Program-made: the position numbers and the translations under genes
Notes under the pieces: generated by a model
Told to the model about the DNA's origin: nothing
What the model saw: only the letters and a program-made list of their open reading frames with translations
Databases searched by the model: none
Shown here: piece by piece, positions 970 through 14,052 of the stretch
Position numbering within the stretch: position 1 is the first letter of the stretch
Layout: every line of letters starts with the position of its first letter
DNA from: Bacillus sp. RO3
Lineage (GTDB): Bacteria > Bacillota > Bacilli > Bacillales > Bacillaceae_B
DNA length: 64,000 nucleotides
Reading direction: 5' to 3'
Assembly (NCBI RefSeq): GCF_012911895.1
Contig: NZ_JAAXCV010000012.1
Location: 1 to 64,000 of the forward strand

Positions 970-1722
970 ATGACAATTAAAAAGAAGTTAGGTATGGGAA
1001 TTTTAACTGGAGTTATGGGATTGTCTTTAGTTGGTGGGGGAACTTGGGCTGCGTTTACAGATGAAGAGGTAGCCATGAATAAATTTGCGGCTGGTACTTT
1101 GAATCTTCAACTTGAAGATAAAGGAGGAGCTGTTTTAACTCAATCACTAGATATTTCTAACATGAAACCTGGTGACTCTAAAGATTTTGATATATTCTTT
1201 GATAACATCGGAACCTTAGGTATTAAAAATGTGTTTATGTCGGGTGCTAAGGTTGCCAACAGTTTTCAAGATGCCCCAGCACCAGATGGGGAGAGTGAAA
1301 ATTTTTCAAATTCAGAAGCTCAATTTTTAAAACAATTTTCAATTAAAGTTTTCGATGGTGCAAAAAATAAAGTTCTTGGTTCAATGAACTTAAATGAGTT
1401 CTTGAAAGGTACAACATCAAAAGATGCAATTAAAAAGGCCACCGAACCTGGGATGGGACTGCCTGTAGATGCAGATAGAGACAAAATAGTTGTCACAATT
1501 AAATTCGAAGATGAGGGTAATCAAAACAAGTTTATGGGTGACGCTGCTCAATTCAAGCTATTATTCCAAGCTACTCAACAGGATGGAATTCATATTAATC
1601 ATGACGGTACTGGATCAAATGGAGAAGGAGTAGTTGAAGACGATAAGGGTTATATTATCTACAACGAAAATCAACCTTATAAAGTAAATGATCCTATTGG
1701 TAATGAAGGTGGAAATAACTGA
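970..1722 (+). CDS. tasA: TasA/camelysin-family major biofilm fibre protein
   Basis: 250 residues with a good AGGAGG site at 956-961. The N-terminus has a basic start, a hydrophobic core and the camelysin-type motif GGGTWAAFTDEE near residues 22-34, where SipW cleaves. Then come NKFAAGTLNLQL and NMKPGDSKDFDIFFDNIGTLGIKNV, typical of the TasA/CotN family, whose mature subunits polymerise into extracellular matrix fibres. The C-terminal tail (from about 200) is polar and Gly/Asn rich. It lies 73 bases after sipW in the same direction and is followed by a strong intrinsic hairpin at 1737-1765, so most transcripts should end there. Confidence 0.92.
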   Translation: MTIKKKLGMGILTGVMGLSLVGGGTWAAFTDEEVAMNKFAAGTLNLQLEDKGGAVLTQSLDISNMKPGDSKDFDIFFDNIGTLGIKNVFMSGAKVANSFQDAPAPDGESENFSNSEAQFLKQFSIKVFDGAKNKVLGSMNLNEFLKGTTSKDAIKKATEPGMGLPVDADRDKIVVTIKFEDEGNQNKFMGDAAQFKLLFQATQQDGIHINHDGTGSNGEGVVEDDKGYIIYNENQPYKVNDPIGNEGGNN

Positions 1723-1781: not shown

Positions 1782-2438
1782 ATGAAAAAATACCTAATAT
1801 TTGTTGGGATTCTTCTAATGCTCATTTCCCTTCCAAATTTTGTATTTAGTGCTGGTAACAGAGACCTTGGGTTGGATATCAGCGCAAATAATCTCCTTTT
1901 TAATACAGGTAATATGAAACCAGGGGATTCTATTTCTAAAAATTTAACCATTCAAAATAATGGTAAGGAAGATTTTGAGTATATGATAGAAGTATTAAAT
2001 GAAGTCAAAGAAAAAGATATTCTTTTTAAAGAGTTAGAAATTACTGTATTAAGAGGAGAAAAACCGATATATTCAGGAAAATTAAAGGACATTGGAAGTT
2101 TAGAGCCTGTTTTACTTAAGATTCAAACACAAGATCACTTATTTTTTACTATAGAAATGCCTTATGAATTGGGCAACGAATATCAAGGAGTGGTAACAGA
2201 GTTCATGATTAGAGTGGTTGCTCAAGTATCGGGCGATGAAACATCAACCCCAACGTCTCCTCAAGTTGATTCCGAAAATAATGAAAATCCGACTGTACCT
2301 GTTTTTTCCCAGGGGCCAAGTCTTCCAAATACAGGGACTAATATTTATAGCATTTTACTACTAGGTGCGATCTTGATCACAACAGGACTCACATTTATCT
2401 TCATAAATAAAAGAATATCCAGCAAAAAAGAATCATAA
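1782..2438 (+). CDS. LPXTG-anchored surface protein with TasA-like N-terminal domain
   Basis: 218 residues from ATG 1782, which follows AAAAGGAG; an in-frame ATG at 1743 is inside the preceding terminator hairpin and is not credible. A signal peptide (about 1-24) leads into a domain with LLFNTGNMKPGDSISKNL, which repeats the NMKPGDS motif of the upstream TasA and looks like a beta-sandwich TasA/camelysin relative. A Thr/Pro/Asn-rich linker precedes LPNTG at about residue 181, a hydrophobic segment and the basic tail NKRISSKKES: a complete sortase A sorting signal. I infer a peptidoglycan-linked anchor or cap for TasA fibres. No sortase gene is present in this window. Confidence 0.8.
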   Translation: MKKYLIFVGILLMLISLPNFVFSAGNRDLGLDISANNLLFNTGNMKPGDSISKNLTIQNNGKEDFEYMIEVLNEVKEKDILFKELEITVLRGEKPIYSGKLKDIGSLEPVLLKIQTQDHLFFTIEMPYELGNEYQGVVTEFMIRVVAQVSGDETSTPTSPQVDSENNENPTVPVFSQGPSLPNTGTNIYSILLLGAILITTGLTFIFINKRISSKKES

Positions 2439-2461
2439 ATAAATATAAAACAGGTGATACC

Positions 2462-2659
2462 ATGTACAAAAAAATCTGCACACGCTGTACAAGATCTTCC
2501 TTCAGTAGCGTGGAAACCGGCCAGTGGGTCTGTCCTTCATGTGGTTTTGACTTGACTGACAGGCCGTTTTATTCCCCCACTCATTACCAGAATATTAATG
2601 AAAAAGTCCTCCCTCTCAGAAACAAGCTGGAAATCTACAAAAAACGTCAACATCAGTAA
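2462..2659 (+). CDS. Small zinc-ribbon protein of unknown function
   Basis: 65 residues with a CAGGTGAT ribosome site 8-10 bases upstream of ATG 2462. The CTRC and CPSC knuckles (CxxC, 17 residues, CxxC) form a plausible zinc ribbon. The C-terminal 30 residues are polar and basic. It follows the LPNTG gene by 23 bases, so it may be the last gene of the matrix operon. No specific function can be assigned; a DNA/RNA-binding or protein-interaction adaptor is possible. Confidence 0.65.
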   Translation: MYKKICTRCTRSSFSSVETGQWVCPSCGFDLTDRPFYSPTHYQNINEKVLPLRNKLEIYKKRQHQ

Positions 2660-2816
2660 GAATTCGACAAAATAGCTTAATTTTCATGTATGAAAAGGGA
2701 ACAATAATAGACGTATTCATAAATATTGTCATAAAAACGTCATTAATGTAGGAAAAAAGTGTAAATTAAATTAACAGAAAAGACAAAAAACAACATAAAG
2801 TCAGAATATTTAGTAG

Positions 2817-2822
2817 TATAAT
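2817..2822 (+). promoter_or_regulatory. Probable -10 element for the riboswitch-sinI transcript
   Basis: A perfect TATAAT lies 23 bases upstream of the aptamer. No good -35 box is found 17 bases upstream (CATAAA), so the promoter may be weak or activator dependent. Confidence 0.4.
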
Positions 2823-2844
2823 CGAATCAGTTCAATGGAAAGTG

Positions 2845-3003
2845 TCAGACAAAGGCAAACTTATTGAAAAGTAAGGACGCAAAGTCACAGATCTAAGGTA
2901 GGAAAGTAGTCATATCTTTCTAAACATCTTACATATAATGGACAGAAAATAAAGGATGGAAAAGGTGTGGTTATTTGAGAACTAAGATGGCTGGACTGCC
3001 TGA
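2845..3003 (+). ncRNA. c-di-GMP-I (GEMM) type riboswitch controlling sinI
   Basis: The left half has the GEMM signature: AAAGGCAAAC (2851-2860), a P2 stem around a GAAA loop, then GGACGCAAAGTC (2875-2886) and ATCTAAGG with the tetraloop-receptor-like CTAAG. The right half, GATGGCTGGACTGCCTGA (2986-3003), matches the GCCGGGTTGCCGA-type 3' end of known c-di-GMP-I aptamers. TCAG (2845-2848) pairs with CTGA (3000-3003) as P1. The P3 arm is unusually long, about 85 bases. The identity comes from recognised consensus segments; ligand binding is inferred. Confidence 0.78.
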
Positions 3004-3027
3004 AATACGTGCATGTATTTTGGGAGG
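2996..3027 (+). promoter_or_regulatory. Hairpin sequestering the sinI ribosome binding site (expression platform)
   Basis: CTGCCTGAAATAC (2996-3008) pairs with GTATTTTGGGAGG (3015-3027) around a 6-base loop: 12 of 13 positions pair, including G-U. The right arm contains the sinI Shine-Dalgarno GGGAGG. The left arm CTGCCTGA (2996-3003) is also the 3' end of the aptamer including P1, so the two structures exclude each other. Ligand-stabilised P1 should free the site, predicting a translational ON switch. Confidence 0.72.
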
Positions 3028-3029
3028 GA

Positions 3030-3173
3030 ATGAGAATGACAAATCGTGAACTTGACCTTGAATGGATGGAATTGATTAAACAAGCACTGGACGCCGGAAT
3101 TTCAAAAAAGGAAATCAGGGAATTTCTTCATAGCCAGTCCCAGGACATGAAAGCCGACTTCAAAGTGATTTAA
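3030..3173 (+). CDS. sinI: SinI-like antirepressor
   Basis: 47 residues from ATG 3030 (ATG 3036 is an in-frame alternative) behind GGGAGGG. The core ELDLEWMELIKQALDAGISK followed by KEIREFL is the SinI/SinR dimerisation helix-turn-helix and closely resembles the C-terminal part of the neighbouring SinR (DHEWLKIAEEAMDSGITKEQ). SinI binds SinR and removes it from DNA, derepressing matrix operons. Here sinI is convergent with sinR and preceded by a c-di-GMP-type riboswitch, unlike the tandem sinI-sinR arrangement of B. subtilis, where sinI is under Spo0A control. Confidence 0.88.
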   Translation: MRMTNRELDLEWMELIKQALDAGISKKEIREFLHSQSQDMKADFKVI

Positions 3174-3180
3174 TATAAAT

Positions 3181-3210
3181 AAAGTCTTGCGAGCACAGTC
3201 GCAAGACTTT
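3181..3210. terminator. Bidirectional terminator between sinI and sinR
   Basis: Perfect 12-bp inverted repeat AAAGTCTTGCGA / TCGCAAGACTTT with loop GCACAG and A/T-rich flanks on both sides, 7 bases after the sinI stop and overlapping the end of sinR. Confidence 0.88.
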
Positions 3211-3529
3211 ATTTATTGCCTAACTTCCATTTATTGAATTCAATGAACTCCCTGAATTGTTCCTTCGTGATACCGGAATCCATTGCTTCTTCAGCAATTT
3301 TAAGCCATTCGTGATCAATGTTTTGATCATCCGGCTGATCATGTAATAAAGCATCCATGGAGATCCCTAAAGCAGCAGACACTTTTTGAAGGAATTGAAT
3401 GGATGGATTTTGTTGAAGGTTCCGTTCAATCGAGCTTAGGTATGACTTAGCGACACCAGCTTTTTCAGCAAGCTCAGTCATGGACATTCTTTTTTCTTGT
3501 CTGTATTTCTTTACTCTTTCACCGATCAA
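3209..3529 (-). CDS. sinR: SinR-like master repressor of biofilm genes
   Basis: 106 residues from TTG 3529, chosen because IGERVKKYRQEK aligns with the start of SinR and AGGTG lies 6 bases upstream; an ATG at 3559 would add ten residues without homology. Residues 1-60 form an XRE helix-turn-helix with SMTELAEKAGVAKSYLSSIE, almost identical to B. subtilis SinR. The C-terminal EWLKIAEEAMDSGITKEQ region is the SinI-binding and dimerisation domain. SinR normally represses the eps and tapA operons; the matrix operon lies 1 kb upstream here. Confidence 0.92.
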   Translation of the reverse strand: MIGERVKKYRQEKRMSMTELAEKAGVAKSYLSSIERNLQQNPSIQFLQKVSAALGISMDALLHDQPDDQNIDHEWLKIAEEAMDSGITKEQFREFIEFNKWKLGNK

Positions 3530-3621
3530 GGGGAACACCTGCCTAAAAATAACTTTCATAAAATTTACGCTACACCAATTATATCATATAGTTGGATTTT
3601 ACATGACGAAGTTTCGTATCG

Positions 3622-4062
3622 TTACACGCTTGGCTTGGCTGTTGCTGGGATCCGTGGCTTCGATACCATTTTCTCACGGAACTCACGGATTAATTCCTCG
3701 CCTGTGTATCCTTTTTGCACTAAGTCATCAAGAAGTAATTCCGCATATTCATTCCGCTGCTTTTTCAATTTCCCTTCGAACATGATACTGATATGCTCAT
3801 CCATTTCTTTAATACAGCGGATGGAGGTCATGAAAGCGGCGGGGTCATTGGCTTTATGTGAGATGACGACTTGAATTTCAAGTTCGTCCTTCCTTTGCTG
3901 TGCCTCTTGAAAGAATTCGATATATTGATTGGACATGTACGTTTCTACAAGCCACGTACTTTGCCCATCTTCTTTATTGATAATCAGACCGTCTACTAAT
4001 TCAAAGTCGCGCAGTTCATCATTCTCCACTATTTGAAGTGAAATCACTTTAAAGGTTTTCAT
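3622..4062 (-). CDS. ywpF: YwpF-family protein
   Basis: 146 residues beginning MKTFKVISLQIV, with DGLIINKEDGQSTWLVETY and NDPAAFMTSIRCIKEM, recognised as the YwpF family of Bacillaceae, for which no mechanism is established. The N-terminal half looks beta-rich and the C-terminal half helical with an Arg/Lys-rich tail. It is divergent from ssb, as in B. subtilis, where ywpF lies near ssbB (ywpH). Soluble, with no signal peptide. Confidence 0.8.
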   Translation of the reverse strand: MKTFKVISLQIVENDELRDFELVDGLIINKEDGQSTWLVETYMSNQYIEFFQEAQQRKDELEIQVVISHKANDPAAFMTSIRCIKEMDEHISIMFEGKLKKQRNEYAELLLDDLVQKGYTGEELIREFREKMVSKPRIPATAKPSV

Positions 4063-13801: not shown

Positions 13802-13828
13802 AAAAAAAGCGTCCGATTGACGCTTTTT
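13802..13828 (-). terminator. Terminator of the riboswitch-controlled small membrane protein gene
   Basis: On the minus strand AAAAAGCGTC pairs with GACGCTTTTT around AATCG, with a T-tract. It overlaps the stop codon. Confidence 0.88.
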
Positions 13829-13958
13829 ACATCTGGTACGTTAGAAGTGTAGTACCCGCTATGAGGATGATCGTAAATAAAAATAATCCCGCATACAATA
13901 ATCTTTTTTTCTGTTTTTTTCTCTTATACATTTGTTCCGGAGTTAAAAACGACGACAA
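13827..13958 (-). CDS. 43-residue single-span membrane protein under c-di-GMP-type riboswitch
   Basis: Starts at TTG 13958, 8 bases after AGGAGG (minus strand of 13967-13972); TTG 13964 is too close to that site. The protein begins SSFLTPEQMYKRKKQKKRLL, a cytoplasmic basic stretch, followed by one membrane helix LLYAGLFLFTIILIAGTTLL and a four-residue tail, TYQM. It has its own promoter, riboswitch and terminator, so it is a genuine unit. The function is unknown; small membrane regulators of motility, secretion or a larger enzyme are possibilities. Confidence 0.72.
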   Translation of the reverse strand: MSSFLTPEQMYKRKKQKKRLLYAGLFLFTIILIAGTTLLTYQM

Positions 13959-13972
13959 GTACAATCCCTCCT

Positions 13973-14052
13973 GGTTTGGTAGCTGGCTGGCATGGTTAGC
14001 CCCTATAGCTTTGCGTCATCACCTTTCGATGATTTTGCCATTATTCATAACC
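13973..14052 (-). ncRNA. Second c-di-GMP-I (GEMM) type riboswitch
   Basis: Read on the minus strand: ATGGCAAAATCATCGAAAGG, TGATGACGCAAAGCTATAGG, GGCTAACC, then ATGCCAGCCAGCTACCA. The invariant GGCAAA, GNRA-capped P2 (ATCATC-GAAA-GGTGAT), GACGCAAAGCTATAGGG and CAGCCxGxTxCC segments are all present. GGTT (14049-14052) and AACC (13973-13976) can extend P1 right up to the AGGAGG of the downstream gene, suggesting translational control. A GEMM-Ib (c-AMP-GMP) specificity cannot be excluded by eye. Confidence 0.75.

Follow-up and report, generated by a model that had tools for sequence, protein, structure and literature searches.

The sinI locus

The window (the whole stretch of DNA analysed, 64,000 nucleotides of Bacillus sp. 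RO3) carries near its start a small sinI gene facing a convergent sinR, and between the sinI promoter and its start codon lies a structured leader (Table 1). With a SinI domain scoring over the cut-off and sinR at its side, the small frame has the marks of a SinI antirepressor, for which binding to SinR and a block on SinR's DNA binding are predicted, and the earlier note was right in calling it a clear sinI. The convergent arrangement recurs at 33 of the 35 loci of the window's genus (g1; 35 genomes, its own included), and a tandem sinI-sinR order was found for 12 of the 64 tabulated leaders, all 12 from other families. Many relatives (L010, L017, L046 and others) have a second SinR-like gene some 1–1.25 kb upstream of sinI. 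At the hairpin shared by the convergent gene ends, the terminator scan reported nothing.

Table 1. Features at and upstream of sinI (window positions)
Feature	Position	Strand	Evidence
TasA/camelysin-like matrix protein gene, possible SinR target	970..1722	+	Peptidase_M73 108 bits
Spo0A box TTCGACA (= TGTCGAA, other strand)	2663..2669	-	exact box upstream in genus leaders
-10 element TATAAT, sinI promoter	2817..2822	+	aligned leaders
c-di-GMP-I aptamer	2844..3003	+	RF01051 64.4 bits; R1 99.3 bits over 2845-3028
Aptamer P1 5' strand (UCAG), partner CUGA 3000-3003	2845..2848	+	CAG/CUG in 55 of 64 leaders
P3 extension, folding into long helix	2898..2982	+	81-base cmscan insert; RNA folds
Anti-Shine-Dalgarno hairpin (expression platform)	2996..3027	+	folds, aligned platform, blocking test
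C92-C93 equivalents: predicted ligand contact and first anti-SD helix pairs	2999..3000	+	leader alignment
Shine-Dalgarno (SD) sequence GGGAGGG	3022..3028	+	7 bases before ATG
sinI, 45 aa	3036..3173	+	PF08671 49.9 bits (cut-off 31.4)
18-bp hairpin at convergent sinI/sinR ends, terminator-like, no strong T run	3175..3216	.	fold -24.1 kcal/mol
sinR, convergent	3209..3559	-	HTH_3 60.4 and SinI domain 42.3 bits; solved SinR 1b0n_A 129 bits

All 12 aligned leaders have TATAA at the -10 element, and 11 of them have the full TATAAT. The upstream motif, which we take to be a Spo0A box, is present as an exact copy within 218 bases upstream of 28 of the 35 genus leaders, against a mean of 0.66 and a maximum of 3 for single-base shuffles. 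Induction of sinI by Spo0A in B. subtilis is stated in PMC8072697; this induction and the box upstream are the grounds on which we propose an AND of Spo0A and c-di-GMP. The arrangement suggests that sinI would need Spo0A for its transcription and c-di-GMP for its translation.

The matrix protein gene, presumably TasA, is separated from sinI by a gene for an LPXTG-anchored protein with a weak camelysin match (1782-2438). Its nearness to sinI, to which the earlier note had drawn attention, holds for the window and is not part of the general layout: stretches of 14–15 kb around sinI of two other Rossellomorea (L101, L102) gave no TasA or SipW match. Among 64 leaders with flanks of ~1.5 kb, only the window and L064 had such a match, a count that says little, since flanks of this length would include no more than the end of a tasA lying where it does in the window.

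A c-di-GMP-I aptamer precedes sinI

The earlier note had claimed a c-di-GMP-I aptamer upstream of sinI and proposed a covariance check. In an Rfam cmscan of the whole window RF01051 gave a significant match there (E = 2.6e-10; gathering score 35 bits) that spans the full model (1-87), includes an 81-base insert in the P3 loop and ends 32 bases from the sinI start codon. The conserved segments on which the claim was built were all located: GGCAAAC at 2854, GACGCAAAGTC at 2876, CTAAGG at 2893 and GGCTGGACTGCC at 2989, with GGGAGGG following at 3022. The sinI aptamer is one of six RF01051 matches in the source genome, where the genome-wide search gave it 40.2 bits (2844-2919), presumably less because of the P3-loop insert. 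Model R1, built from 30 leaders (26 from other families, 4 from the same genus) with the window left out, recognized it at E = 3e-23. Across 64 leaders the P1 letters were CAG/CUG in 55 and UCG/CGA in 1 (L021 being anchored on an earlier GGCA; L095, without the GGCA anchor, was left out of this count, of the platform alignment and of the CCU-blocking test described below). The length of the P3 insert is very variable in much of the genus, and P3 is mostly short in other families.

By alignment, the ligand-contact bases G20, A47 and C92 are all present, as G2854, A2881 and C2999 (in the numbering of the Vibrio Vc2 structure), and c-di-GMP is therefore the expected ligand. The source genome has 11 GGDEF and 7 EAL matches. 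On these scores and letters we regard 2844-3003 as confirmed as a c-di-GMP-I aptamer before a true sinI, with ligand binding predicted.

A second c-di-GMP-I riboswitch of the window (13975-14049, reverse strand, 68.3 bits) precedes a 45-aa membrane-peptide frame (~13827-13964) that is followed, by eye, by a hairpin with a T run; the last 43 residues of this frame had no Pfam match. Elsewhere in the genome, a riboswitch (L105; G000:C2, aptamer 14463) lies before a cell-wall-binding CWB2 protein (225 bits), and another (L106; G000:C16, aptamer 146397) lies directly after a PelG gene (PF16933 420 bits) with a GH114 glycosidase frame next (PF03537 47 bits), possibly placing a Pel-type exopolysaccharide under c-di-GMP.

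Conservation of the leader among relatives

A SinI-based scan of named genomes gave 24 loci, 17 of them Rossellomorea or Bacillus entries scoring between Rossellomorea ones. Of the 150 genomes in the SinI search 110 gave a match, in many cases owing only to the SinI-like tail of SinR. The 70 loci (67 genomes) examined were not a random sample: stand-alone-looking open frames were chosen, best first, and some such places were left out. By cmscan, RF01051 or RF03167 precedes sinI at 65 of these 70 loci, in 64 of 67 genomes and in all 35 of the genus (20/20, 20/20, 10/10 and 15/20 loci by batch), so that the layout was indeed found again in related genomes, where the earlier note had advised looking. 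No aptamer match was found by cmscan at the other 5 SinI loci. In the last batch, the L058 aptamer precedes another SinI frame of the same stretch; one genome (G072) has two aptamer-sinI loci (L068, L073). Among named loci outside the genus, the aptamer also adjoins sinI in Alkalihalobacterium (L094) and Mesobacillus (L095, 96.1 bits with R1), and none was found at the three named Metabacillus loci scanned. Two Muribaculaceae matches (L099, L100) had no riboswitch and were taken as chance. RF01051 was absent from all 14 control genomes, B. subtilis among them.

Of 397 genomes of the order, 94 contain the hairpin signature CCTGRAATRCN{3,14}GTATTTTNGGRGG, each a single time, and they span 24 of 135 genera; the reversed signature was found in none of the 397. 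Thirty signature loci were read: 29 had a recognized SinI frame and L111 a similar frame by eye. The aptamer core was present by letters in 24 (including L111), cmscan added L112, and the other five (L118-L122) had no aptamer up to E = 1.

An anti-Shine-Dalgarno hairpin that shares bases with the aptamer

As the earlier note had described, the 3' end of the aptamer also forms one strand of a hairpin that buries the sinI ribosome site. In the fold of a 61-base region its pairs run from C2999-G3024 to C3008-G3015, with outer pairs C2996-G3027 and U2997-G3026 that are missing from another fold of the sinI leader. In the hairpin, C2999, C3000, U3001 and G3002 are paired with the SD region. Alternatively, C3000-G3002 could form P1 with CAG 2846-2848, and C2999 is the predicted ligand contact. 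The same letters are thus claimed by two structures.

The 61-base region alone had a z of only -1.19 (20 of 200 shuffles at least as stable), so its stability was dropped as proof in itself and the weight of the hairpin comes from conservation. The platform alignment has 64 rows and 52 distinct sequences, and in the latter 97.6% of cells form the anti-SD pairs, compared with 41–58% for slid partners; column shuffles averaged 96.8%, and 1 of 500 reached the observed value. Covariation in this helix is weak, with two pairs changed on both sides, and it too was dropped as proof. Some divergent leaders appear, by eye, to bury the SD with other letters, as in L065 (GCUGCC with GGUAGC).

Blocking the common CCU raised mean SD openness from 0.40 to 0.74 over 64 leaders, a test run without a shuffle control. 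Openness rose by >0.15 in 51 of the 64 and fell by >0.05 in 3; in the window, the unpaired fraction of the SD went from 0.45 to 0.95 at a cost of 6.1 kcal/mol. Among 15 rows inspected, L053, L058 and L062 had no SD pairing with the aptamer strand and L054 had little. L059 and L067, lacking the CC, were left out of analysis A3. The result was weaker in a version of the test with a longer 3' end (no SD match for L065). There, 47 of 64 leaders rose by 0.2 or more, and the window reached 0.21 from 0.10 (local) or 0.14 (full). In 21 of 64 loci no more than 2 of 40 platform shuffles reached the observed gain; for the window 8 of 40 did. The anti-SD helix is predicted to exclude the ligand-bound fold, with less force once the 3' end is longer. 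The terminator scan found no terminator-like site in 2400-3700, and control by a terminator was dropped as a candidate.

Since binding and SD burial are mutually exclusive in the letters, the reading that fits best is a translational ON switch, and this is what we predict; the ON sign proposed in the earlier note held at this predicted level. The conserved letters support it strongly and the energy calculations moderately.

Hairpin without aptamer in the genus of B. subtilis

The five signature loci without an aptamer all belong to one genus, g43, in which the SinI of locus L165 is identical to PDB 1b0n_B (57 of 57 residues), and we take g43 as Bacillus in the strict sense. A slightly looser signature was present in 75 of 80 genomes of the family (f43), once in each, with none in controls: 42 of 44 g43 genomes, compared with 33 of 36 in the other genera. 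Under strict filters RF01051 had no match anywhere in 21 g43 genomes, 19 of which have the platform, and none adjoined the platform among 12 places listed for g43; 12 further g43 genomes had one match each, outside those 12 places, one of these genomes (G266) being covered by the cmscan of signature loci. In the sister genera at least 22 of 33 platforms were adjoined by RF01051 among the matches listed, all such adjoining counts being lower bounds owing to the strict filters and the matches listed.

Subtilis-type leaders (this label and pumilus-type are our own, after SinI identity), L165 for example, have ATGGCCGGACTGGCTGAAATAC before the hairpin where aptamers read ATGGCTGGACTGCCTGAAATAC. 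In an anchored comparison with the consensus of the aptamer 3' strand, 12 of 13 of them matched 9–11 of 14 bases and L163 only 5, and the other g43 leader type matched 7–8; the null for this comparison covers only matches of ≥11 of 14 (3 of 12529 positions, probably the sites themselves). R1 gave 17.8–25.9 bits for all 14 g43 leaders tested, compared with 99.3 for the window. Aligned to four aptamers without an anchor, Bacillus-type leaders mostly did no better than shuffles. Ahead of the same SD hairpin, pumilus-type leaders (L139-L155) carry a strongly conserved GGGCGGAAACATGACGCAAGC...ATGCGTTAAGTGCC; no Rfam match was found in the five genomes that were tested (L118-L122), and these leaders may hold a changed aptamer rather than a dead one.

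Loss of the aptamer within g43 is the simplest account of these distributions, and we regard the B. subtilis sinI leader as a probable relic of a riboswitch.

Relation to known systems

The window shares core, fold and ligand-contact bases with RF01051 (GEMM-I) riboswitches generally, and differs from them in its long P3 extension and in an SD-hairpin platform that uses the P1 strand and C92. B. subtilis sinI-sinR, which is under Spo0A, resembles the window locus in its Spo0A box, SD hairpin letters and gene pair, and differs in that no aptamer was found. The earlier note knew of no described c-di-GMP riboswitch on sinI; this did not stand, since Table 4 of PMC4342826 gives a putative one in Bacillus methanolicus MGA3, (c-di-GMP)-sinI at BMMGA3_08510. 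That likeness is a table entry, which in the part of the source available comes without mechanism, conservation or test. The cbpA 'on' riboswitch of Bacillus thuringiensis, as excerpted from PMC7423583 and PMC7793685, likewise puts a biofilm-related Bacillus gene under c-di-GMP, but that gene encodes an adhesin, whereas the window switch would act on the SinI-SinR hub. A microarray in PMC7793685 had sinI up at high c-di-GMP, with no mechanism given in the available portion. In Paenibacillus, according to PMC9943018, a SinR-like gene (P40081_02330) has an 'antisense-acting' c-di-GMP-I riboswitch; it points at a sinR-like gene as in the convergent layout of the window, but is explained there as antisense control. 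It may be a convergently placed sinI riboswitch that went unnoticed. PMC13340098, so far as seen, deals with tasA. Neither the sinI leader hairpin nor its translation was found in titles and abstracts among the matches listed in the open-licence literature, and subscription papers may hold more. The riboswitch class is a known one, and its association with sinI is in print as the table entry of PMC4342826; conservation, mechanism and relic appear new within the literature searchable.

Proposed mechanism and alternatives

In the explanation that we favour, transcription from a Spo0A-type promoter would start shortly upstream of the aptamer. Without ligand, the aptamer 3' strand (C2996-G3002) would pair with the SD region and SinI would go untranslated. 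Binding of c-di-GMP through C2999 would stabilize P1 (UCAG 2845-2848 with CUGA 3000-3003) and remove the lower half of the anti-SD helix, leaving only its AU upper stem, so that the SD would be free and SinI made; SinI would then bind SinR and, we infer, lift the repression of matrix genes. Aptamer and hairpin together would be the older state in these Bacillaceae, from which the B. subtilis genus would have kept promoter and hairpin and lost the aptamer. Taken as a whole, a c-di-GMP translational ON switch on sinI, with later loss of the aptamer in that genus, is in our judgement likely, and the interpretation offered in the earlier note is partly supported.

That the ligand is a related dinucleotide is extremely unlikely. 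RF03167 (c-di-GMP-I-GGC) is the top clan match in 14 of the first 20 loci, a ranking that may stem from its laxer P3 loop; however, its consensus reads GACGCGAA, with G after GACGC at the A47 position, whereas the core GACGCAAA occurs in 64 of 66 leaders and the other two also have A after CGC. RF03167 scores the window at 56.7 bits, below its cut-off of 59, and with A2881 in place it was ruled out as the true class. An OFF switch, in which c-di-GMP would lower SinI, for example by stabilizing a larger fold that hides the start region, could draw on the upper AU stem persisting in the bound state and on the SD pairing elsewhere when more coding sequence is included (the small gain of the window with the longer 3' end). 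We nonetheless hold it very improbable, as the bases that bury the SD are those of the ligand contacts and P1, and blocking them opens the SD in most leaders. That the leader works mainly through transcription (termination or RNA stability) and less through translation is also improbable: many c-di-GMP-I riboswitches act on termination, and RNA decay can follow translation, but no terminator-like site was found in 2400-3700 and the conserved leader element is an SD hairpin that lacks a U run. The tandem loci favour translation as well, since translational control of sinI alone would shift the SinI:SinR ratio, while a terminator would cut both genes.

For the history of the leader we put at about even the chances that direct c-di-GMP control of SinI translation is ancestral in the order and that B. 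subtilis lost the sensor, its platform still folding and now constitutive or answering another factor. That the hairpin of the B. subtilis genus arose as an independent SD hairpin, or that its aptamer changed to sense something else, is a rather doubtful alternative. It gains from the L139-L155 leader type, which keeps GACGCAA and UGCC in a different, well conserved sequence and whose unanchored alignments to the four aptamers were mostly no better than shuffles; against it stand the recurrence of the same hairpin letters ahead of sinI, in 42 of 44 genomes as well as in aptamer-bearing sister genera, and the anchored matches to the aptamer 3' strand in nearly all subtilis-type leaders.

Implications

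No biofilm switch of Bacillus is better studied than SinI-SinR, and c-di-GMP serves bacteria in general as the biofilm signal; to our knowledge the two are usually described apart. A conserved sinI riboswitch would join them in one RNA, with Spo0A supplying the message and c-di-GMP licensing its translation, so that the SinI:SinR ratio would shift with sinR untouched. The probable relic makes it possible to test what the hairpin conserved at the ribosome site of B. subtilis sinI does at present. If the wiring is ancestral, B. subtilis, the model organism, would be the exception. c-di-GMP is not known to matter much for B. subtilis biofilms, and loss of the sensor could, if true, explain this minor role.
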